Virus record (IMG/VR): IMGVR_UViG_3300027969_000411
Location: 1 to 24,392 of that record
Strand: one strand, 5' to 3'
Source of the DNA: a virus
DNA length: 24,392 nucleotides
Below are positions 2,655 to 23,997 of this stretch, in pieces. The notes beneath the pieces were generated by a model, which ran no database searches, was not told the DNA's origin, and was given only the letters and a program-made list of their open reading frames with translations. The stretch's first letter is position 1, and each line of letters starts with the position of its first letter. Both the position numbers and the translations under genes were made by a program.

Positions 2655-2724
2655 GCTCTTCCCCCCCCACTATGTGTTCTTTTTTCATTAGATCCTGTCC
2701 GAAGCATCGTGCTTTACCTTTCAT
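2647..2724 (-). other. 25-codon ORF coupled to the ParB stop, broken by a G8 run before the methylase
   Basis: The ParB-like gene ends in TGA at 2721-2723 and an ATG at 2722-2724 overlaps it as ATGA, the coupling used throughout this genome. The frame from that ATG passes a second in-frame ATG at 2686-2688, preceded by AGGA, and crosses the G8 tract at 2661-2668. It stops at TAA 2647-2649, just past the annotated methylase ATG. Removing one G (or adding two) would join this frame to the methylase and give a 345-residue protein with 23 extra N-terminal residues. As it stands it is either a leader peptide allowing reinitiation at 2654 or the original methylase start knocked out of frame. Confidence 0.6.
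2661..2668 (-). repeat. Mononucleotide run of eight G (minus strand) at the methylase start
   Basis: Eight consecutive C on the plus strand, read as G8 in the mRNA, lie six bases upstream of the annotated methylase ATG and inside the 25-codon coupled ORF. Runs of this length are prone to replication slippage, RNA polymerase slippage and sequencing error. The run also serves as a purine-rich segment at ribosome-binding distance from the ATG at 2654, so length changes would alter either the frame or the spacing. Confidence 0.85.
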
Positions 2725-3377
2725 TTGTTTATGTTTTTGAGTCCTATGAGCCTTTGTCCGTCCTTAGAATATCCCGATACCATCACCGAGCCGCCGGGCG
2801 CTGCATGGTGGGAGCCCTCGCCGCGTCCTAGCTCGGAGCGGATGCCTATCGCGAGCCACGCTCGCTTTCTGTCTTGCCACCAGCCCTCGCGTGCGTTCAG
2901 CACCGAGAACGGAGGGATGCCGAACTTAGCCGATAGTGAGCCAGCTCCGACTTCGCTTCCCTTTGCTGCTTCTTCTGCTGGATCAGCCATTAGTTCTCCA
3001 AGCTCTGCCTCATCGAATCCTAGCAGCCCGAGATCGAAGTCTGCCTCCCGTAAGTCCGACAACTCCAGCCCCAGCATCTCCTCATCCCAGCCTGCGTTCA
3101 GCGCGAGCTTGTTGTCGGCGATGATGTAGGCGCGTCGCTGCGTGTCGGTCAGGTGGCCGAGGCGGATGCATGGCACCTTGTCGAGTCCGAGCTTCTGCGC
3201 GGCCATGACTCGACCGTGACCGGCGATGATCCCGTTCTCGGCGTCGATCAGGATCGGGTTGGTGAATCCGAACTCGCGGATCGACCCGGCGATCTGTGCG
3301 ACTTGTGCCTCTGAGTGTGTCCTCGTGTTCCGTGCGTAGGGAATGAGGGTTGTCGTTTGTAGTGTTTCAATTTTCAT
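2721..3377 (-). CDS. ParB/Spo0J-like nuclease-domain protein (methylase partner)
   Basis: A 218-residue protein with an N-terminal ParB-like domain: LIPYARNTRTH near residues 11-21, the GHGR box at 53-56 followed by VMAAQKLG, and an IADNKLAL segment near 86-93. The C-terminal part holds FGIPPFSVLNAREGWWQDRK around residues 150-170, a stretch normally found between the ParB and methylase domains of fused phage modification proteins. With the methylase gene next door it looks like the front half of that system carried as a separate gene. It starts in an ATGA overlap with the zinc ribbon gene and ends in an ATGA overlap with the short ORF described at 2647-2724. The likely role is site recognition or regulation of methylation; whether it has CTPase or nuclease activity cannot be told. 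Confidence 0.88.
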   Translation of the reverse strand: MKIETLQTTTLIPYARNTRTHSEAQVAQIAGSIREFGFTNPILIDAENGIIAGHGRVMAAQKLGLDKVPCIRLGHLTDTQRRAYIIADNKLALNAGWDEEMLGLELSDLREADFDLGLLGFDEAELGELMADPAEEAAKGSEVGAGSLSAKFGIPPFSVLNAREGWWQDRKRAWLAIGIRSELGRGEGSHHAAPGGSVMVSGYSKDGQRLIGLKNINK

Positions 3378-6405: not shown

Positions 6406-8628
6406 TTATCTGCTGATTGCGTATCTGAGAGCCTTGCCGACCGGTGCGCGGTCGCTGAGTGAGACGTATTGACTGCCGCTGCGTGCGAGCTTGGCAAGTG
6501 CCGATCCGCAGGCGCCGTGCCACGTTCCGCATAGTTGGCGTGCCTGCTCGCGGACTGGAGAGTTGAGTTCGACAAGTCGCGCCTCGACCTCGGATGCGGT
6601 CATGTCGCGTGGCAGATCGTGCCAGATGCTGTAATCAGCGAACGCTGCTTCGAGGAGTGCTTCGAGGCGCTTGCTCGGACTGTGTGCGTCAACTGACTCG
6701 CTGAGTTCTGGATCGCGCCATGCAATAACCCCTGAGCGGCTGTCTTTGATTTCGTCGGGTGTCACCCAGTCGATGAGTTGCTGCGCGAATGCAGGCAGCT
6801 CGGAGCGGATGAGAGATTGCAGAGCCGTTTTACCATCGGGTGTCGAGGTGTCGATCGGGAGCTTGACGCCGATGACATGCAGGAGCGCGATCTTATCAGC
6901 GAGGTCAGCGTCGAGCGGTGGGATGATCTGCAAGGACTCCGGTGTGGAGTTGCAGCAGACCATCACGCACCAAACTGGGCGGACTGAGATTGAGGAGTGG
7001 TTGCGTTTGCGGAGCTGCACCGAGTGAGGATAGACCGACTCCTTGAACGATGCACCGAACGCTCTGCGGTTGCGGATGTCAGTCGAGGCGACGCAGTCAT
7101 CGACGAGGAGTAGTTCTGATCCGACGAGGTCGTCGTTCCAGAGCATCCCGCCTGACCATGCTGAGTAGGGATTTGCTGTGCGACCGCCGAGGGTCTGGGC
7201 AACGATCCAAGCGAGGAGGCTCTTGCCTGAGTTGATCTCACCGGCGAGAACGAGCATCGGAGATGGGATATGGCAATGCGCTCGCACCGATTTATATCGG
7301 CCGGAGAGCCAGCTCATGAAGACGGTCGTCGCCATCGGGTCAGCGAACGCTCCACCGACGATCTCGGAGATGGTCGGTGCGTCGCCTGCCATCGGTTCTG
7401 GGATCTTTGCCTCGGATGTGATGAGGATCGGAAGGTCGTTCGTGTCCTTGCTAAGTCCCTGAGCATGTCCGGCAATGCTGCCGTGCCATTGAACTCCTCC
7501 GTCGAGTTCGCGGTTTTTTACGCTCTCTCGGACTGCCTGCATAAGATCCTTCGGCTCGTCGTATTGATCGCTGAGGTGGCGCGAGACGCCGGTGATGACC
7601 GGGGAGAGCTTCGAGTAGGTCATGAACGACTTGCCGACGCGGACGAGATATTTGTTCGCCGGTCCGTCGTAGAATAGATCTTCTGGATCGAATGACTGCG
7701 CGGTCGATGGTGCGCGTCTGGCTGCGGCCACGGTAGCGGCGTCGCGCCAGTCATCGTCTGCTGATGGCATCTCGGATGAATAGACCGTGCGGACCGCGTC
7801 GATGACCTCGGTGGGTTGATAGGAGCGGCGGAGCGTGCCGTCGTAGGCTTGGAGCTTGGCGACTGCGTCGGACTCACTCAGCTCGGCGAACCGGCACCAC
7901 CAAGCGGCCTCCATGAGCCAAGTGTGGATTCCCTCGCGAGGTGGAGATGGAAATGCTGTCTTGCCGACCTTGAGCTTGATGCCTGACTTCTTATCGGATT
8001 TCGCTGCCTTCGGTAGTTCTGGATCCGCAGCTTCGACCGGCTCGAACATCGAGGATCGGTTCAGGTCGATCCATGCGCCGGGATCGTGCGAGACGAACAT
8101 CAGGCGGACTGGATCCTTGCATGCCTCGTCCATTGTCAGGTTGTGAGCGCGGAAGTGATTGCGAGCTGCGACGAACGCAGCGACGTGTTGTTCCTTGGTC
8201 TTGCATACTGGAATTCGGGCAATGCCTTTAACTCCGGCACCAGAAGGAGAGACGAAGGCTGCGACGATGCGCGGCTCGGCTTGGAGTATCTCGACGATCT
8301 CCTCGACCGTCCAGCCGACATTATCAGCGGCGTCGAAGTCAAGTTGAAGGAAGCCAGAGTGGATGAATCGTCCCTCCTCGATCGCCTTCGCCCGGCGGCC
8401 TTCGCAAGTGCCGGAGATGCTGACCGCTTGCAGGTCTTTCTTGGCGACTGCATATCCGTCGTCGTCACCGGCTGCGAGCGTGCTACGGAGCCGGGTAATC
8501 TTGGCGGAGAACTCATCGGAGCGGATCGCCTCAATGAGATCTTCCAGCGTGGTGGTCGCCATCGCGCTTGGCGAGGTCGCTGATGAGTAGTAGTCGATGG
8601 CGGTCGGTTTGTTTTGTGTCATTGTCAT
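6406..8628 (-). CDS. Phage primase-helicase (BT4734-like/AEP primase with P-loop helicase)
   Basis: A 740-residue replication protein. The N-terminal part matches the BT4734/VirE-type primase-polymerase domain: LQLDFD at residues 94-99 supplies the first acidic pair, FVSPSGAGVKGIARIP at 125-140 the conserved 'SPSGxGxK' loop, and DPVRLMFVSHDP at 172-183 the strand that follows. A linker with a helical PriCT-like segment (about 230-285) leads to a helicase-type P-loop ATPase with Walker A GEINSGKS at 463-470 and Walker B ELLLVDD at 505-511. Together these would prime and unwind the phage DNA at the fork. It sits between the SNF2 helicase and DUF3310 genes. The leader ends GAAACACTATG; an in-frame ATG two codons downstream is an alternative start. 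Confidence 0.88.
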   Translation of the reverse strand: MTMTQNKPTAIDYYSSATSPSAMATTTLEDLIEAIRSDEFSAKITRLRSTLAAGDDDGYAVAKKDLQAVSISGTCEGRRAKAIEEGRFIHSGFLQLDFDAADNVGWTVEEIVEILQAEPRIVAAFVSPSGAGVKGIARIPVCKTKEQHVAAFVAARNHFRAHNLTMDEACKDPVRLMFVSHDPGAWIDLNRSSMFEPVEAADPELPKAAKSDKKSGIKLKVGKTAFPSPPREGIHTWLMEAAWWCRFAELSESDAVAKLQAYDGTLRRSYQPTEVIDAVRTVYSSEMPSADDDWRDAATVAAARRAPSTAQSFDPEDLFYDGPANKYLVRVGKSFMTYSKLSPVITGVSRHLSDQYDEPKDLMQAVRESVKNRELDGGVQWHGSIAGHAQGLSKDTNDLPILITSEAKIPEPMAGDAPTISEIVGGAFADPMATTVFMSWLSGRYKSVRAHCHIPSPMLVLAGEINSGKSLLAWIVAQTLGGRTANPYSAWSGGMLWNDDLVGSELLLVDDCVASTDIRNRRAFGASFKESVYPHSVQLRKRNHSSISVRPVWCVMVCCNSTPESLQIIPPLDADLADKIALLHVIGVKLPIDTSTPDGKTALQSLIRSELPAFAQQLIDWVTPDEIKDSRSGVIAWRDPELSESVDAHSPSKRLEALLEAAFADYSIWHDLPRDMTASEVEARLVELNSPVREQARQLCGTWHGACGSALAKLARSGSQYVSLSDRAPVGKALRYAISR

Positions 8629-8649: not shown

Positions 8650-10005
8650 TTAATTCATGCGCTGGAGAGCGCGGACAGCCAAGAGCATTCCGCTTTGAGT
8701 TTCTGATTTATCGCGGAGTGCTTCAGCGACCGCGTCATCCACCGTCCCTGAGCAGATGATACGATAGATCAGAGTCTCTGCCGTTTGTCCAGTGCGAATG
8801 AGTCGGGCGTTGGTTTGGACGTAGGTTTCGTGCGAGTAGGTGAGGCTGACCCAGATTGCAATCCGGCAGGAGACTTGCAGCCCGTCGATCCCGTGGCTGA
8901 GTGATCGCGCATCGGCGACCCAGACTGGGATATTGCCTGCCTTCCAGTCATCGAGGTCAGCTTCGTTGAACATCTTGGATCCGCGGACCGCGGCGATGAC
9001 CCGGGCACTCTCGTGCTTGAACGCGCAAAGAACGAGGATCGGCTCGCCCTTGTGCCGAGCGATGATCGCCTTGAGCGTGGAGATCTTAGCGGTGTGAACT
9101 GGAAGGATGTTGCGGTCTTCATCATAGACGGCTCCTGATGTAAGCTGGAGGAGCTTATTGACCAGCACGCCAGCTGATGGTGCGGTGATCTCTCCATCCT
9201 CGATCTCGGCGAGCATCTCTTTTTCGAGAGTCTTGTATTGCTTGCGAGCTTCGGCAGGCATGACCGCAGCGACATCGACCACGCTGGATGCTGGCAGGTC
9301 AGACTCCTCGCCGATCAGGACTAGAGCGAGGTCTGAGAGCTTGGCGTCGATCGCCTCCTTTGATCCTGTGACCAGTTTGTAGGTGTAGCCCATGTAATCG
9401 GCCGGGTAGAAATAGGCGTCGCGGTAGCCGGTGAACGTGCGACCGAGGCGGCTGCCATCGTCGAGCATCTTGATCTGCATGAATAGGTCAAGGTAGTTGT
9501 TCGGGATCGGTGTTCCGGTCAGACCCCAGCGGCGCTCGATCGCGGCGAGGTGCTTGTGCAGAGCCTTGAAGCGTTTGGAGGCTGGGTTCTTAGCAAGGCT
9601 GAGTTCGTCAATGACCAGCGTGTCCACCGGGATCTCGAAGGTCTTGCTCTTCGGGAACATCTTCGGCAGGCGGCTCGGTAGCAGCTCGGAGTTGATGAGG
9701 TAGATGTCAGCGGCTTGCTCGTGCCATGCCTTGAGTCCTGCTGCGGTCCGCAGGTGTGCGACTCTCATCCAGCGGGTGTGCGCCCATCGCTCGACCTGAG
9801 CTGGCCATGTGATCGAGCAGACGCGGAGTGGTGCGACGATCAGCGCAGCCTTGAACTTGCCGACCGTTGCCAGCGCGTCGATCGCGGTCAGAGTGACCAC
9901 GGTCTTGCCCTTGCCGGGTGAGACGAAGAGCGCGGCCCGATCGTTGTCGAGCAGGTGGTCGATCATCGGGAGCTGGTAGGCGAACGGCTGGAAGTTTTGG
10001 CTCAT
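8650..10005 (-). CDS. SNF2/superfamily 2 DNA helicase, phage type
   Basis: A 451-residue single-chain SF2 ATPase of the short SNF2 type common in phages. The sequence shows a Q-like motif YQLPMIDHLL near residue 10, Walker A SPGKGKT at 29-35, DELS at 133-136 in place of DEAH, motif III LTGTP at 162-166, and in the second RecA lobe SHGIDGLQ and QTNARLIRTGQT for motifs V and VI. It should translocate on double-stranded DNA and remodel replication or recombination intermediates. Its start overlaps the stop of the VRR-NUC nuclease gene as ATGA; this nuclease-helicase pairing is frequent in phage replication modules. It ends 21 bases before the primase-helicase gene. Confidence 0.93.
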   Translation of the reverse strand: MSQNFQPFAYQLPMIDHLLDNDRAALFVSPGKGKTVVTLTAIDALATVGKFKAALIVAPLRVCSITWPAQVERWAHTRWMRVAHLRTAAGLKAWHEQAADIYLINSELLPSRLPKMFPKSKTFEIPVDTLVIDELSLAKNPASKRFKALHKHLAAIERRWGLTGTPIPNNYLDLFMQIKMLDDGSRLGRTFTGYRDAYFYPADYMGYTYKLVTGSKEAIDAKLSDLALVLIGEESDLPASSVVDVAAVMPAEARKQYKTLEKEMLAEIEDGEITAPSAGVLVNKLLQLTSGAVYDEDRNILPVHTAKISTLKAIIARHKGEPILVLCAFKHESARVIAAVRGSKMFNEADLDDWKAGNIPVWVADARSLSHGIDGLQVSCRIAIWVSLTYSHETYVQTNARLIRTGQTAETLIYRIICSGTVDDAVAEALRDKSETQSGMLLAVRALQRMN

Positions 10006-16082: not shown

Positions 16083-18050
16083 TTAAGCAATTTTGCGAAT
16101 GATCAAATAAGACCCCTGCCCGACTGTTGTTGTTGTTGCTGAGGATGTATTTTGTGCCGCAGTGAGTTGATAGGTATTAGTTCCACTTGTGACAACTAAG
16201 ATTCCACCGCGTTCGTGGTTATCAGCGTTGGCTGTCGCACCCCAAGGTCCACCACCAGCTGGTGCAGTATTAACACCTGCAATGCGCGATGGTGATGAGC
16301 CGTTGCCATATTGTCCTCGATACCCGCTTATTACAGGAGCGGCTCCTTCAAGGATTGATGGGGTGACTTTTGAATTTGCTGAGTTTGCCGTGAATCTAAC
16401 AAACGCATCTATCGAATAAGTGCCTATCGGCAGAGCCACAGATAAAATAACGGTACCTGTTGCATCATTCGTGTAAGATACGCTGCTTGCAAGAATCCTG
16501 TAATAAAGCTGACCTCCATATCGAGTATCAGCAAGAGCGCGAGTCATCGCGCTTGTGTCGTTCGTAGCTGCCTGACCTGTGAGTTCAGTCTGACCGCTGA
16601 AGGTCTTATTCCCTGCGATGGTCTGTGCGCCTGTGAGCGCGACGTAGAGCGTATCGAAATACGTTTTGAGAAATGCCTTGAGATTAGTGAATGTGACCTT
16701 CTTCAGTCCGAAAGATGCTGCGCTGTCGGTGATCGGGATCTCGTCTGCGTCAACTGGTGTTGTCTTCGATGTGGCGGCTGTGATGAGTGAGGCGATCCGT
16801 GCGCCTGTCTCGTCGCCAGTGTTCGTGCCGCTATTCGTGCCAGTGATGTCAGAAGTTAATGCGACTGTGCCTGCATTGTTTGGAAATGCAATCGCTCGGT
16901 TTGCTGTCGGGGAGTGGGAGAGCGTGGTTGTATAAGTGCCGTTGAAAAGTTTAAATGTTGAGCGGGATCTGATGTAGGCGTTAGTTCCTTGGGTCTCAAT
17001 AACAGCGTCACTTCCGCTTGTATAGATGTGTGCAAAGTTGCCAGATGTGGAGATGGTTGCACTACCTCCGTTTGTAGAAATGCTACCATCATAATTAATA
17101 GATCCGACAAAGCCTTCGTCAGCACTATCGAACTGCATAAAACTGCCTTCAAACGAATATAACTTACATGCTACTCCAGAACCTGTTTGGAAATTACCAC
17201 CATTTCCTGTATCACTTGATCCATACACTCCGTCTCCAGAATCACTGTCTCCACGCACTCCAGTTCCCGAAGTGCTATTTCCTTGAATACCAGTGCCGCT
17301 AGGAGCGATTCCAGTAACAGCATTAAAAGCTCCAGATGGAGATGTAACGCTTAACTGTCCAGTAAATACAGGATCTTCAATCGGAGCTGCACCAATATCA
17401 GCAGGAGTAAGAGGGTCACTTCCACCGATTGCGTGAGTCTGTGCGTGCAGCGGAAGGGTCTGGCTCGTTCCGAATAGTAGCTGATGATTGTTTGCAAAAC
17501 CAGTCGTTCCAATTCCTCCAGAATCGACAAGAGTTATTGGGAATGTAAAATATGCGTTAGCTGTCCCGCCTCCAGTCAATGTTGGTGTTCCAGATATCAA
17601 CCATAATTGGAAATTTTCTGATATGTCACGATCTTGCAGGAACAGTTGCTGACCTTCTTGAATGAATCCTAAGAAGAATTCAATGTCGTCAGCATCTTGA
17701 TTCTTGTGCGACACGTTAATGCTAGTTGCACTGATCTGAGTAGCATTGTTCCAAATAACATGACCATCGGTTGGATTGCCAGTAGTTATCGTGGTCTTGG
17801 CTCTATAATGCCAAGCGGTTGTCGAAGATCCAGATGCTCCAGTTGCTCCAGTTGCTCCAGTAGCACCCGTAGCACCCGTAGCACCCGTAGCTCCGGCTGG
17901 GCCGGTTGGTCCTTGGTTGAGATTAATGATTGAGATTCCGTCGCCAGTTGATCCGACCTCGACGACTGCGACCGGCTGACCGTTCGATTCGACTTGAACG
18001 GTTGAGACCGCTCCGCTACTCGATTGCACTTCGACGATTGCGATGCTCAT
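16083..18050 (-). CDS. Collagen-like tail fibre protein
   Basis: A 655-residue fibre protein. After a strand-rich N-terminal anchor (residues 1-45) come nine Gly-X-Y triplets at 47-73 (GPT, GPA, six GAT, GAS), a collagen-like trimeric stem. A middle domain follows, then four ten-residue repeats of the form SGTGVxGxSx at 251-290, probably a beta-structured shaft. A segment with DADEIPITDSA and YFDTLYVALTG (about 440-490) resembles shaft pieces of many phage fibres. The C-terminal part from about residue 530 is a strand-rich tip likely to bind the host surface. The region coding for residues 120-400 is visibly more AT-rich than the neighbouring genes, suggesting exchange between phages. It is the best candidate here for host-range determination. 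Confidence 0.85.
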   Translation of the reverse strand: MSIAIVEVQSSSGAVSTVQVESNGQPVAVVEVGSTGDGISIINLNQGPTGPAGATGATGATGATGATGATGASGSSTTAWHYRAKTTITTGNPTDGHVIWNNATQISATSINVSHKNQDADDIEFFLGFIQEGQQLFLQDRDISENFQLWLISGTPTLTGGGTANAYFTFPITLVDSGGIGTTGFANNHQLLFGTSQTLPLHAQTHAIGGSDPLTPADIGAAPIEDPVFTGQLSVTSPSGAFNAVTGIAPSGTGIQGNSTSGTGVRGDSDSGDGVYGSSDTGNGGNFQTGSGVACKLYSFEGSFMQFDSADEGFVGSINYDGSISTNGGSATISTSGNFAHIYTSGSDAVIETQGTNAYIRSRSTFKLFNGTYTTTLSHSPTANRAIAFPNNAGTVALTSDITGTNSGTNTGDETGARIASLITAATSKTTPVDADEIPITDSAASFGLKKVTFTNLKAFLKTYFDTLYVALTGAQTIAGNKTFSGQTELTGQAATNDTSAMTRALADTRYGGQLYYRILASSVSYTNDATGTVILSVALPIGTYSIDAFVRFTANSANSKVTPSILEGAAPVISGYRGQYGNGSSPSRIAGVNTAPAGGGPWGATANADNHERGGILVVTSGTNTYQLTAAQNTSSATTTTVGQGSYLIIRKIA

Positions 18051-18419: not shown

Positions 18420-19751
18420 CTATTTCCATAGAAACGCGCCTTCGCTAAATTGCGTGACGTTGCCTAGTCCGTCCGAGTAGGAGATCGGGATGATTTTGAC
18501 GCCTGAGGTGTTAGCTGGAAGCGTCGGAGCTGAGAACGGACCAGTGACGCCAGTGATAGATCCGGAGGTCACTGCTGCCTTGAGATAGGTGTAAAGCGCA
18601 AGCGGTGGCGTGACGACCATGTTGATAGCTATTGAGAAGTCCACGCCGTTGTTGTAGGTGTTGCGCCCGTAAGCTGTTGAGTCATAAGATCCGGTCGGGT
18701 CGAGGTATTGCTCGGCCCCGGCGACCGTTGGGCGGATCGCGATGACTTGAGAATGGTCTGAGATCGTCGCGACTCCGGCACTGCTAATATCGCATCTGAA
18801 TTGGTTTCCTGTTTCGACCCAATGAGTGACAGTACTCTGTGTAAATGGAAATGTCCCACCTAGTGCCACAGAAGTCATCTCGATCTCTGTTTCTACTTCT
18901 TTTCCTTCATACATGACCGAACGTGTGAAAGCTGTTCCGCCATTAAGTGAATTTCCGTAAGCTGTCGAGGTTGCCGTGAAAGTATTTCTTCCTGTTGCTG
19001 ATGGAGTGTATGGAGGTGCTGCACCGCCCGGACATGAAAGGTTCAATGTCCATGCTGTTCCTGTGAATGGTGCCGTGACGCGAACGATGCAGAACGAAGG
19101 GGAGGCGGTTGACTTTGTGAAAGATGCTGTGCCTGCACCCGGACCAGCAACCACGACTGCCACGCCGTCGTAAGTTCCGCTGACTCCTCGATAGCCGGTA
19201 TTGATGACCTCTGTGCCGTTATACTCGACTGTAAAGATGTCTGGCACTGTGTAAGCGTCAAAAGTCAATGTGACGAGACCGGTTGCACTGCCAAGATCAA
19301 CGATATATTCGCTATTTCCCGGTCCTCCATCTGTGACTATTGCTGTGCAAATTATCCTCTCATCCAGAGGGATGGATCCAGCCGGAGCTGTCATGATGAC
19401 ATCGGTATCATCCGACCATTCCAAACTTCCGTTTGAGTTGACTAATACATTGAACCGAGGATCTTCGCATGCCCATTCATATTTTTTAATCTGCTTAAAC
19501 CATCCGCTAGGGATGTCGTCGTTGGTTGCTGTCTCGATGAGCATGTTTCGACTTGATCCACCGGCGAAGCGAGGCTGCGCTCTGTTTGATGGAAAATTGC
19601 CAGTGATTAGAGGTTGCATCGGAACGGCTTGTCCTCCGTTTGTCCGTGCAGTGTTGAAGATGCTAGTTGTGGCAGCGGTCAGATCAATGACAACTCCTGC
19701 CTCGATGCTCATGTCTCCGATGTTTGAACGAGTGGTTGTAAATTGGCTCAT
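18420..19751 (-). CDS. Phage tail-module structural protein, function unknown
   Basis: A 443-residue strand-rich protein without long helices. Residues about 130-185 contain PLDERIICTAIVTDGG, SEYIVDLGSATGLVTLTFDA and DIFTVEYNGTEVINTGYRG. This beta-sandwich pattern ('v.L....g.v...fday..PD.f.v.ydg..v.dTg..G') is known from secreted and virion surface proteins. The start overlaps the hub gene stop as ATGA. Its place after the hub and before the fibre makes it a tail-tip or receptor-binding accessory protein by inference. I do not recognise a named family for the whole protein. Confidence 0.75.
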   Translation of the reverse strand: MSQFTTTRSNIGDMSIEAGVVIDLTAATTSIFNTARTNGGQAVPMQPLITGNFPSNRAQPRFAGGSSRNMLIETATNDDIPSGWFKQIKKYEWACEDPRFNVLVNSNGSLEWSDDTDVIMTAPAGSIPLDERIICTAIVTDGGPGNSEYIVDLGSATGLVTLTFDAYTVPDIFTVEYNGTEVINTGYRGVSGTYDGVAVVVAGPGAGTASFTKSTASPSFCIVRVTAPFTGTAWTLNLSCPGGAAPPYTPSATGRNTFTATSTAYGNSLNGGTAFTRSVMYEGKEVETEIEMTSVALGGTFPFTQSTVTHWVETGNQFRCDISSAGVATISDHSQVIAIRPTVAGAEQYLDPTGSYDSTAYGRNTYNNGVDFSIAINMVVTPPLALYTYLKAAVTSGSITGVTGPFSAPTLPANTSGVKIIPISYSDGLGNVTQFSEGAFLWK

Positions 19752-22474
19752 ATGTAGCTGATGTTATCTTGTGAGGTCTTGCGGATCTTATCGACGAGAG
19801 TGCGGTAATCGTTGCGCGGTGGCGCTCCTAGTTGGATCGTAGTCCTGCCGCTCTCGATCTCGATCGTCTCGCCTGAGACGAGTGCGCCCATGGTTGAGAA
19901 AGCTGCCAGAGAGTTTGTGATATTGACCTTGGTTCCGACGTAGCGCGTTGCACCGACATCCTCCTGTTCCAGAACGATCTCGCCTGCGTAGGGTAGCCAG
20001 TTCTGCGTCAGTCGTAGGAAGTCAGCGAGTCCTGCCGGTGGGTTGATGAATGAATAGTCGGCTGCTTTGTAAAGTGTGCTTGATCCCGCTGAATCTGGAG
20101 TTGCGAATCCTGAGAAGCTAAATGTTTTGAAATAGACTCCTCCATAGGTTCCATAGGTAGGACTGCTGTATCCGGTTGCATAAAGCGTTAAACCAGCCGG
20201 AGCGAGATATTTTGCCTCTCCGATATATTTATCGTTCAGGTCATAGTAAGAATCGAAAAGACTCATGGTGCCGCTGACTGTGCATTCGACATAAGGGATT
20301 TCTGTCCAGTCGGCAGGTTGTCCAGATGTGAGGATGCTGTAACCGATCAACTCTTTTCCGCTCTTGTCGGTTATTTTTGGAGCTGGCCATCTGATATTTG
20401 CAGTAGGCCATGAGTAATCATTGGTAGGCCAATCATCAGACGAACTCCACAAGACGTAAGAACTGGGACCAACACTAATTGGGATTCTAGTTATTCCTGC
20501 TGCAAGTGCCGCAGCCACGCAAGCGCTGTCTGAATCGTGAGCAAGGGTCAAGATGTTCGTGCTTTTCACGATCGTCTGCGTCTCGAAAAGGTCGTTGGGA
20601 AGGAAGGTGTCAAGCTCTGGTCCTGCTATCGTGATGACCTGACGCTTGGTGATGTCCTTACCTGTCGGAGCTGTTCCTGATGTCTGATTATTGAAGACCG
20701 TTCTTCCTGTTACGTTGCGAGTGACTGCCGGAAGCGTGACTTGGCTGACTTCAAGCTCGATGACTGGGTTGATGTCGATCGAGGTGATCGGTGCTGTGTC
20801 TTCGTTGAATGTAGTCGTGGTGCAGGTCGGACGGCGGACGACTCGCATCGCAGCTGGTTTTACCGAATAGTCAAAAAAGACCATCGCATCTGGAACGAGT
20901 CGGATGAGTTCGGCAAGTGCCTGCCCGCAGGTTGATTGATTGAGCGTGATGCGTGGGTATTCTTGCATCGCGGTGACTGTCGATCCTCCAGCGATGTTTG
21001 CGATCGGACATCCGAGAGCATTAGACCGATTGATGACTGACTCGATGCTCGTCTTGAGATCTTGACCAAGTGATGCGCTGCCGAAGACGAACGAGATTCG
21101 TTCGGCTGATATGCCGGTGCCATCTTCGATCTGTGAAGTGAATGGAACCTTCTCAAGAAACCACCACGGCCCTGAGACCGTGACCTGATGCTCCTGCGAG
21201 TCGCCTCGAATAAAGCTGCGGACGTTTGTGACGTTGCCGTGGAAGAAACGAACGCCATCTCGATAAAGTGCCATCTCCTGCCTGAGTGATGGAAGGCTTG
21301 AATCTGGAGAAGGGATGTTCGATGGATTCGGTGGCTGTGCAACTTCGTATTTGATAACCACTATCCCGGATGATCCGTTTGCACCGATACCAAGATCTTT
21401 TGATTTAAATAAACCCGCTCCTCCTCTGCCAGTATTAGGCACGACTGAGACGTCGGGTGTCAGTGAACCACCCCCACCGACCGCGTAGGTCGTTGCTGTC
21501 CCTGTGATCGAGTTGGAGAGACCAGCACCGCCATCGGCGATAGCTGATGAACGATTTGTTCCGGCGGCTCCAGCTCCTCCTCCTGTGCCGAAGTTTGTTG
21601 ATGAGCTGGATCCACCGATGTTGCCTTGACCGACAACTCGCGTTCCTCCTGCACCTCCAGAAGTGCCACCGCCACCAGATCCACCATTGCGGCCTGCGAC
21701 TGCGGTTGTGCCTGAGACGCTCGCACCGGCTCCTCCTCCTGTGGTCACGACTGTCGAGCCGATTGATGAGGCTCCGCCGTCAGATGCTGCTGTTTGCGTC
21801 AACTGTGCCATGCCACCGGCTCCGACTGTGATTGCGTAAGTTCCAGCCGAGAGCGTTGTCGAGCCGGTCAGATAGCCACCTGCACCGCCACCACCGCCTG
21901 ATCGGTTCGAGGAGTTCGCACCGCCTGATCCACCGCCACCGACGACGAGATACTCGACCGTGCCGCCATTTGTGACGACAAACGATCCGCTTGTTCTGAA
22001 GATGTGCGTGCGGTAGTTGCCTGAGTCGGTTATATCTCCTCCTGTGGCGACGACTTTCTGCAAGACGTATTGTGCGACTTTCGTGTCGCTAGTCAGGATG
22101 CCCGGTGCGGTCGCTCTAACTTTGAGCGTCGATGGGTTGGCGATCGTGAGCGTGCCACCGTTGGCGACCGTCGGACTGGATCCGGTCGGGTTGCTGCCGT
22201 CGGTCGTGTATCTGATAGTCGCACCAGCAGTTGCGCATGCAACGACGACGTTGACCGTGGAGCCTGTTCTGATTGATGAGTCGGGTGTGACTGTCGGCGT
22301 GGCGGTAAAGACCTGAGAAGAGGCATCCTCGACGACGATTGAGATGTTCAACTCGTCGGCTTCGAGGCTGCGGAAGTTGACGTTCGCAGCAGTGATTTTG
22401 CGATACTCAAGAGAGCGAGCTGTCTCGTCCCATCCTTGACCAGTTTCTCCTTCGATTGTCCAGTTGGTCTGCAT
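19748..22474 (-). CDS. Tail hub-like protein with chitobiase-like and glycine-rich insert
   Basis: A 908-residue protein. The ends look like one phage tail hub/tip protein: residues 1-54 (ARSLEYRKITAANVNFRSLE) and from about 396 on (EMALYRDGVRFFHGNVTNV, VSGPWWFLEKVPF). Between them lies an insert. Residues 55-140 resemble a chitobiase/Fn3-associated C-terminal domain (GATIRYTTDGSNPT). Residues 141-378 are a Gly-rich domain (GGTVEYLVVGGGGSGG, then GTGGGAGAAG) ending with GSSGIVVIKYE, the signature of phage-fibre Gly-rich domains. The remaining 500 residues include a hub-like region with many Thr/Val strands and SSDDWPTNDYSWPTANIRWP near 700. It follows the tape-measure gene directly, the normal place for distal tail and hub proteins. 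The insert probably projects as an adhesin. Confidence 0.82.
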   Translation of the reverse strand: MQTNWTIEGETGQGWDETARSLEYRKITAANVNFRSLEADELNISIVVEDASSQVFTATPTVTPDSSIRTGSTVNVVVACATAGATIRYTTDGSNPTGSSPTVANGGTLTIANPSTLKVRATAPGILTSDTKVAQYVLQKVVATGGDITDSGNYRTHIFRTSGSFVVTNGGTVEYLVVGGGGSGGANSSNRSGGGGGAGGYLTGSTTLSAGTYAITVGAGGMAQLTQTAASDGGASSIGSTVVTTGGGAGASVSGTTAVAGRNGGSGGGGTSGGAGGTRVVGQGNIGGSSSSTNFGTGGGAGAAGTNRSSAIADGGAGLSNSITGTATTYAVGGGGSLTPDVSVVPNTGRGGAGLFKSKDLGIGANGSSGIVVIKYEVAQPPNPSNIPSPDSSLPSLRQEMALYRDGVRFFHGNVTNVRSFIRGDSQEHQVTVSGPWWFLEKVPFTSQIEDGTGISAERISFVFGSASLGQDLKTSIESVINRSNALGCPIANIAGGSTVTAMQEYPRITLNQSTCGQALAELIRLVPDAMVFFDYSVKPAAMRVVRRPTCTTTTFNEDTAPITSIDINPVIELEVSQVTLPAVTRNVTGRTVFNNQTSGTAPTGKDITKRQVITIAGPELDTFLPNDLFETQTIVKSTNILTLAHDSDSACVAAALAAGITRIPISVGPSSYVLWSSSDDWPTNDYSWPTANIRWPAPKITDKSGKELIGYSILTSGQPADWTEIPYVECTVSGTMSLFDSYYDLNDKYIGEAKYLAPAGLTLYATGYSSPTYGTYGGVYFKTFSFSGFATPDSAGSSTLYKAADYSFINPPAGLADFLRLTQNWLPYAGEIVLEQEDVGATRYVGTKVNITNSLAAFSTMGALVSGETIEIESGRTTIQLGAPPRNDYRTLVDKIRKTSQDNISYI

Positions 22475-22476
22475 GA

Positions 22477-23997
22477 TTATCTTGCCGAGGTAGCTCCGGG
22501 CGTTCTACCTTTTAACGCGTTTATCTGATTCTGCAAGGAAGCATTTTGAGCTTTGAACTCCTGCATGATCGTCGTGAGCTGAGTGACCTTCTGGCTGTTA
22601 TCAGTAATCGCTGTGCGAATAAGTGGTCCGAGTTGCGCAAGCGCTCCAGAGTTTGAACTGATCTCGTTCATTGTCACTTTGCCATCTTCAAGATTCTTCT
22701 TGATGGTATTAAGTGCCTCCTGCTCCTTCGGTGTTGATGCAGCTAGATCATCTGTGATGCGTTTAGTCTCGCTTGCAATTAACTTGCTGCGCTCTTCGAT
22801 CTGGGCTGCTGCTGCTCCGATTTCTTCAGTAGATGCTGCCTGAGTGATAGTTGTGACTGCCGCCTGAACATTCTCTCTGGTCATCCGCAGATTCTCTTCG
22901 ACCGTGCTTAACTCACCCCATGATGCGTCAATAGCTGCGGTGCTTTTTGACATGTTGTCTTTGAGTTGACTGATTTTGCTGCGTAAAGATTCGAGTTCCG
23001 CATCAATTCTTCCTGAATCAAGAGTTGATTGAGCTGCCTCAGATCTTTGAATCGACTCGGGACTCTTGCGAGCAGTAAGCCCACCTTCTCCGATTTGATA
23101 GGGACTTATGAAATTTCCTATCCTGTTCAATAAATTAGTTTGTGAGGCCAGCTTCCTTGTCGCTTCAAGTCGAGCTTCGGTGGCTCTTAGGAGTTTTAAA
23201 GTGGCTCCTAGTTCATTAAATGAGTTTTGCTTTTGCTCCTGACTCTTATCTACTGTTTCAGATGCAATCAAAACAGCATCCTCAGCAAGTTTGATTTTGA
23301 GTTGCTCTGCTGCAATCGCCTGATTTACCTCCTCTTGCCTGCGCCTTGCATCTTCGGCAGCTTGCTCAGATTGGCTCTTGAATGCGTCGGTCGATTCTCC
23401 GCGCATTTCCATGAGTATCTTCTCCGCATCATAGAGAGCGTTGTATGAGTCACTGACTGACTTATTGAGTTTCAGTTGATTCTCCGCAGTATTGTTTAAC
23501 TGCTGTGCAAATCTTTGAGCTTCTGTCGCTGCGTCTTCAATCTTCTTTTTTCCGAAGTCATATTTCCGATCAACTGCTTTGGCTGCTGCCTCTCCTGCTT
23601 CCTTTAATCCATCTGCAAGGAGTTTAGTCTTATCGGCTGCGCTCATTGCATCTCCCTGCATTCCCAAAAAAACCTTGGTGGCGATCGCACCGATCGCGAC
23701 AACTGCTCCAGCGATGGCTCCTGCCGGTCCGAATACTCCGAGGAGCTGCGGCGCCTGTTGTGAGAACGCTGTGAGAGCAGAAGTACCTGCACCGACTTGG
23801 ACTGCAAAGTCTTGAATCTGATAGCCAGCCTGACCGACAAGTTGACCCGCTTTAGATGCTCCCTTACCGACATTCGTCGTGGCGGTGTTCGCGCTATTGG
23901 TGGCATTCGTCAGGTTAGTCATCGCAGCAGTTGCCTGCTGTGCGCCCGTCGTGTTGGCGGTCGTATTGATGTTGATCGTGACTTTTCGATTGGCCAT
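22477..23997 (-). CDS. Tail tape-measure protein, short
   Basis: A 506-residue protein that scaffolds and sets the length of the phage tail. The N-terminal part is Thr/Asn/Ala-rich. Residues 56-110 (QAGYQIQDFAVQVGAGTSAL, then FSQQAPQLLGVFGPAGAIAG) carry the hydrophobic block typical of lambda-type tape measures, and the rest is almost wholly coiled coil (about 150-490, rich in Glu/Gln/Ala/Lys). At about 1.5 angstroms per residue the length suggests a tail of some 75 nm, short for this class; this is a rule-of-thumb estimate. The coding region is more AT-rich than its neighbours. The start lies three bases beyond the stop of the previous gene. Confidence 0.88.
   Translation of the reverse strand: MANRKVTININTTANTTGAQQATAAMTNLTNATNSANTATTNVGKGASKAGQLVGQAGYQIQDFAVQVGAGTSALTAFSQQAPQLLGVFGPAGAIAGAVVAIGAIATKVFLGMQGDAMSAADKTKLLADGLKEAGEAAAKAVDRKYDFGKKKIEDAATEAQRFAQQLNNTAENQLKLNKSVSDSYNALYDAEKILMEMRGESTDAFKSQSEQAAEDARRRQEEVNQAIAAEQLKIKLAEDAVLIASETVDKSQEQKQNSFNELGATLKLLRATEARLEATRKLASQTNLLNRIGNFISPYQIGEGGLTARKSPESIQRSEAAQSTLDSGRIDAELESLRSKISQLKDNMSKSTAAIDASWGELSTVEENLRMTRENVQAAVTTITQAASTEEIGAAAAQIEERSKLIASETKRITDDLAASTPKEQEALNTIKKNLEDGKVTMNEISSNSGALAQLGPLIRTAITDNSQKVTQLTTIMQEFKAQNASLQNQINALKGRTPGATSAR

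Follow-up and report, generated by a model that had tools for sequence, protein, structure and literature searches.

In the present study, we describe a 908-aa tail hub of an uncultured phage that carries two extra modules in a loop near its N-terminus. The best explanation, to which we assign a probability of roughly two in three, is that this protein is a gp27/gp44-type hub whose first sub-domain carries, in a loop, an Ig-like CHB_HEX_C_1 domain and a glycine-rich module that bind the bacterial surface; with such binding-type modules inserted, it would thus be an "evolved Tal"-like hub. Because a domain of the sugar-enzyme type and a domain of the fibre-tip type have been spliced into a hub loop, the hub itself probably helps to grip the bacterial surface.

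Results

The window, i.e. the whole stretch of 24,392 nucleotides analysed here, contains on its minus strand an open reading frame of 908 residues plus stop (22474-19748), identified as a hub with inserted modules from Pfam matches and the fold of an insert-free homolog. Alignment to insert-free hubs separates an N-terminal piece with the first strands of sub-domain 1 (residues 1-46, positions 22337-22474) from the inserted segment and its linkers (approximately residues 47-394, 21293-22336). On the 3' side of the insert follow the hub core (residues 395-631, 20582-21292), recognised from its fold and its identity to relatives, a hypervariable region (residues 632-799, 20078-20581), and a C-terminal core aligned with that of relatives (residues 800-908 and stop, 19748-20077). 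Within the insert, CHB_HEX_C_1, an Ig-like domain of the chitobiase C-terminal type, occupies residues 72-131 (22082-22261; PF13290, E 1.6e-10, and PF13287, E 3.8e-7; 41.2 bits for PF13290 against a curated cut-off of 22) and is overlapped by an Fn3_assoc match, and Gly_rich_2 occupies residues 163-377 (21344-21988; PF21722, E 1.5e-16, 61.5 bits against a curated cut-off of 24.3). The initial annotation had placed two such domains at residues 55-395; both lie within these residues, the limits fall within a few residues of those derived from homologs, and the two motifs that it quoted, YRDGVRFFHGNV and SGPWWFLEKV, are present in the protein. The Pfam family description counts CHB_HEX_C_1 among the accessory domains that accompany sugar-active enzymes; the domain scan matched no recognised CBM family in the 908-aa protein. 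Moreover, three PHROG profiles that represent phage tail proteins or unknown proteins (phrog_2295, E 1.8e-39; phrog_863, tail fiber assembly; phrog_454, tail fiber protein) cover most of the CHB and Gly-rich part, and because they span both domains, the pair is suggested to travel together.

The hub gene adjoins the tape measure gene directly upstream (22477-23997, minus strand; phrog_1538, E 9e-18), an arrangement that is syntenic in many relatives, and a 443-aa tail-region protein of unknown function is encoded downstream (18420-19751, minus strand), with synteny in most relatives. A 655-aa fibre-like protein is also encoded downstream of the hub (16083-18050). A collagen-like fibre had been proposed nearby; the fibre-like gene is indeed there, but its collagen match is weak (19.6 bits, below the Pfam cut-off of 27.2). 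The strand that carries the tail genes also encodes a terminase-like protein (2-1051), a DNA methyltransferase (1686-2654), a ParB N-terminal protein (2721-3377), a BT4734-type primase/helicase (6406-8628) and an SNF2-type helicase (8650-10005).

The hub core had no Pfam match above cut-off and no sequence match in the PDB, and its only PHROG match was a weak one to baseplate hub in one distant member of the family (L073, E 0.006). An AlphaFold2 model of an insert-free homolog (L040; 35-sequence alignment, mean pLDDT 87.2) matched contractile-injection-system hubs (Z about 20-21), Mu gp44 (1wru; Z 18.0, 291 residues), VgrG (Z 15.8-17.4), T4 gp27 (1k28; Z 16.1, 293 residues) and the 80alpha hub (6v8i; Z 15.1, 301 residues), and more weakly T5 pb3 (Z 10.4-10.8); the top fold match was a deposited 910-aa protein, UniProt A0A6J5N658. 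Because this model matches Mu gp44, T4 gp27 and 80alpha, and given the gene position, the assignment of the 908-aa protein as a gp27/gp44-type tail hub, with a fold of four sub-domains, is established by computation, as is its architecture. The structure alignments start at or near residue 1 of the model, and therefore the N-terminal piece is part of the hub fold. Strands of the model lie at residues 5-8, 27-35, 41-46 and 62-67, with the insertion point between the last two, which on the strand order and the published description of gp27-like domains (PMC9437275) would place it inside the first hub sub-domain. The view that the flanks are two parts of one hub domain is borne out by the insert-free model, in which both belong to one gp27/gp44-type fold and residues 1-54 do not appear as an independent, unrelated domain. 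A model of the full-length window protein with eight near relatives reached a pLDDT of 42.6 and a pTM of 0.28.

Homologs lacking the insert were found by a search with the hub part alone, and a wider search gave 48 viral and 3 genome-contig loci, partly repeats of the same contigs. The insert is cleanly absent from more than 20 homologs. In insert-free hubs, a loop of ~10 residues connects window residues ~46 and ~395, with a net difference of 338 residues, and the N-terminal piece leads directly into the YRDGVRFF segment; in one example (L026), the site corresponding to window residues 46 to 395 reads ...LTFTI-TPESLTSAKI-PDLRQEMILYRDGVRFF. The clean joining across the site that had been anticipated for related phages therefore exists in nature. 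Core residues 395-631 share 59-87% identity with full-length relatives with and without the insert, falling to 42% and 28% in L037 and L038. The insert itself is retained in seven further contigs, where its amino-acid identity is 65-80%; seven contigs (L003-L009) have the same insert-bearing architecture or its 5' part, and one record (L002) encodes a hub protein identical to that of the window. The insert is an evolutionarily discrete unit between two beta-strands, and its retention in seven contigs, low dN/dS and clean absence from more than 20 homologs exclude chance.

On a hub tree built from the hub core, without the insert and the variable region, five complete insert-bearing hubs form one clade (support 100/100), which is sister to insert-free hubs and nested among further insert-free hubs. 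The insert needs only one change of state on this tree, and a single gain is the simplest reading with the outgroup used. Wherever dN/dS could be estimated it was below 1, with values of about 0.05-0.12 for CHB_HEX_C_1, 0.09-0.25 for the Gly-rich module, 0.01-0.11 for the main core of the hub and 0.25-0.40 for residues 632-799; judged from these ratios, the insert is under purifying selection (about 0.05-0.25). That the insert was relocated from a different gene within these phages is not favoured by the records at hand: 16 insert-free records contain neither module at any other place, and four insert-bearing records contain each module a single time, all of these being fragments or of unknown completeness.

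Residues 632-799 behaved differently from the rest of the hub. Mean pairwise identity was 70-76% for the insert and 78% for the hub, compared with 50% for this region, and relative to L003 the region is 46% identical whereas the hub is 87% identical. When the DNA of L006 is compared with that of L009, identity is mostly 91-100% over the hub core and the insert but 53-76% over the stretch encoding residues ~640-800; this stretch lies at about 6900-7450 in both contigs, corresponding to window 20078-20581. The region looks like a cassette exchanged between near-identical phages and is a probable second surface-exposed specificity region. Because it evolves faster and is exchanged, it is a better candidate than the insert as the determinant of fine host specificity; the insert, for its part, may mediate a broader or an initial contact.

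A scan with an alignment of the Gly-rich module returned, as a sample of matches, at least 68 loci, at least 67 of which are not this hub. Among the matches listed, the module forms the extreme C-terminus in 58 of 63 non-hub proteins with a closed 3' end (one such end reads GGSGIVIIRYKYQ) and is internal in the other five, and none of these 63 matches the hub profile. That such modules are usually found at fibre tips, as had been stated, agrees with this result, and given the C-terminal place in 58 of 63 unrelated proteins, the position inside a hub is unusual. The Gly-rich part of the insert and the C-terminal tips of fibre-like proteins of other phages are homologous. Of the 69 glycines in the module 60 are invariant, as opposed to 59 of its 170 remaining positions; for the hub core, the corresponding figure is 92 of 164 non-Gly positions. 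Because its glycines are mostly invariant while other positions vary, the module fits the design of solved Gly-rich tips, namely fixed glycines with variable loops. The Gly-rich profile had no sequence match among solved structures in the PDB, and the sole phmmer match of the insert, a PilT chain (E 0.16), was taken as chance. In one locus (L012:3-4465), three consecutive fibre-like genes each have a Gly-rich module at the end, and two contigs (L103, L135) encode proteins of more than 1,600 residues with several tandem Gly-rich modules and, by eye, other surface-type domains.

Other inserts were observed in the same hub family, at positions given here in L040 numbering. Two hubs (L067:3417-6281; L071:3420-6263) carry a DUF5122 beta-propeller of ~359 residues at 155-159 (Pfam E 8.9e-33 for L067), two (L074, L075) carry a 78-residue insert at 266, and eleven members (L059-L066, L068, L070, L072) carry a 48-51-residue insert at 437; each fits one change on the hub tree. 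Together with the CHB and Gly-rich insert after residue 46, at least four slots are occupied. A broader proposal, that the family is a general multi-slot display scaffold with at least four positions for unrelated modules and a fast-exchanged region, so that host contact is diversified mainly in the hub and not in the fibres, falls in our estimate somewhat short of an even chance.

Three distant hub homologs were found in MAGs labelled Akkermansiaceae, Luteolibacter and Verrucomicrobiales; because their identity is just 25-35%, a Verrucomicrobiota host for the window phage is only suggested. By tblastn, none of 50,697 isolate phage records contained a relative of the hub.

Discussion

Herein, we propose the following model for the inserted modules. 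The hub would form a trimer, and three copies of the insert would therefore stand out around the tail tip. The glycine scaffold may act as a rigid stem presenting variable loops, and the Gly-rich and Ig-like domains together could bind a cell-surface glycan or protein, adding a contact near the DNA exit to those of the fibre-like proteins and of hub region 632-799. We infer with good reason a probable adhesin role of the insert. The stronger suggestion, that display on the hub makes a separate fibre unnecessary for binding the host, is not upheld, since a fibre-like gene (with a weak, collagen-like match) is present downstream and since, within the hub, it is region 632-799 that evolves fast.

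Three other views of the insert have to be weighed. First, as a special case of surface binding, the insert might bind an abundant surface or environmental polysaccharide broadly, providing reversible first contact without strain specificity. The association of CHB_HEX_C_1 with sugar-active enzymes favours this possibility, as do the retention of the module across several contigs while another hub region varies and the finding that Dits carrying CBMs recognise the host of the true RBP, but with a lower affinity (PMC7291167). However, CHB_HEX_C_1 is only a putative binder and no sugar-binding residues were recognised in it, and we place this narrower version below even odds. Second, the insert might be structural or decorative, e.g. 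a collar at the tail tip that keeps the trimer stable or holds adjacent proteins in place, with specificity residing in residues 632-799 and the fibre-like proteins. It is in fact conserved nearly as well as the hub, whereas region 632-799 is divergent and exchanged. Nevertheless, insert-free relatives assemble without it, the non-Gly positions of the module are more variable than those of the hub core, Gly-rich modules of the same type lie at fibre ends in other phages, and those Gly-rich fibre domains whose structures are solved serve as receptor-binding tips (PMC6851490, PMC9608196); a purely structural role is thus considered unlikely. Third, an assembly or gene-calling artefact that fused a fibre gene to the hub gene can practically be dismissed, since the same junctions are common to seven further contigs from different samples (63-81% protein identity), the reading frame is open with dN/dS well below 1, and the deposited 910-aa protein named after the same domain is the top fold match; a chimera or misassembly was likewise ruled out because seven other contigs share the architecture, and nothing was found in its favour.

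Should the insert bind the host, an adhesin of the fibre-tip type has been transferred to the very hub that opens when the DNA is released, and receptor contact has been placed next to the exit channel. Moreover, naturally paired hubs that have or lack the insert, in addition to the other inserts at other sites of the scaffold, make the effect of hub decoration directly testable. Searches of the literature on hubs of Verrucomicrobia phages and on chitobiase or DUF5122 domains in tail proteins returned nothing on point. As far as the literature searched shows, hub decoration itself is known, and the modules, the insertion site and the phage group are new. Decoration of hubs, for which phages of Gram-positive dairy bacteria provide the best descriptions, also occurs, as these natural pairs and the other inserts show, in a quite different group of uncultured (water) phages.

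A close known protein is A0A6J5N658 from an uncultured Caudovirales phage, whose aligned part shares 53% identity with the insert-free hub model. It is similar in length to the window protein and is named after its chitobiase C-terminal domain, not as a hub; judged by length, name and fold match, it very probably has the same architecture. The hubs of Mu (gp44), T4 (gp27) and 80alpha share the overall fold and the place in the tail gene order, and we know of no insert of this kind in them; unlike these hubs, the window family has an extra variable region of ~180 residues before the C-terminal part. Lambda gpJ and T5 pb3 are also hub proteins with inserted extra domains (FNIII-A in gpJ and a plug in pb3), but these concern the HDII-insertion domain and HDIV, and a Gly-rich adhesin is not described there (PMC10721106). 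The receptor-binding tips S16 gp38 (PMC6851490) and Pam3 gp24 (PMC9608196) have conserved glycine motifs and variable loops, and the window module shares with them glycine-rich motifs, including the GGGGxGG type, and variable intervening segments. However, those modules lie at the distal fibre end, whereas that of the window is internal (residues 163-377 of 908) and is followed by the hub core, so that it is not a fibre-tip adhesin by location.

A further close parallel is provided by siphophages of Gram-positive bacteria, in which the tail-tip proteins Tal and Dit are decorated with binding modules (PMC7291167, PMC9437275). In these "evolved Tal" and "evolved Dit" proteins, binding modules have been added to a conserved gp27-like core, either within its loops or at the borders between sub-domains. 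The insert of Brussowviruses lies between sub-domains 3 and 4 and that of the window in a loop inside sub-domain 1; BppA-type CBMs are replaced by CHB_HEX_C_1 and a Gly-rich module; and Gram-positive hosts contrast with uncultured phages whose distant homologs are found in Verrucomicrobiota MAGs. Despite these differences, the window hub has the arrangement of an evolved Tal, in that the module lies within a gp27-like core that, as the natural insert-free homologs demonstrate, is intact around it.
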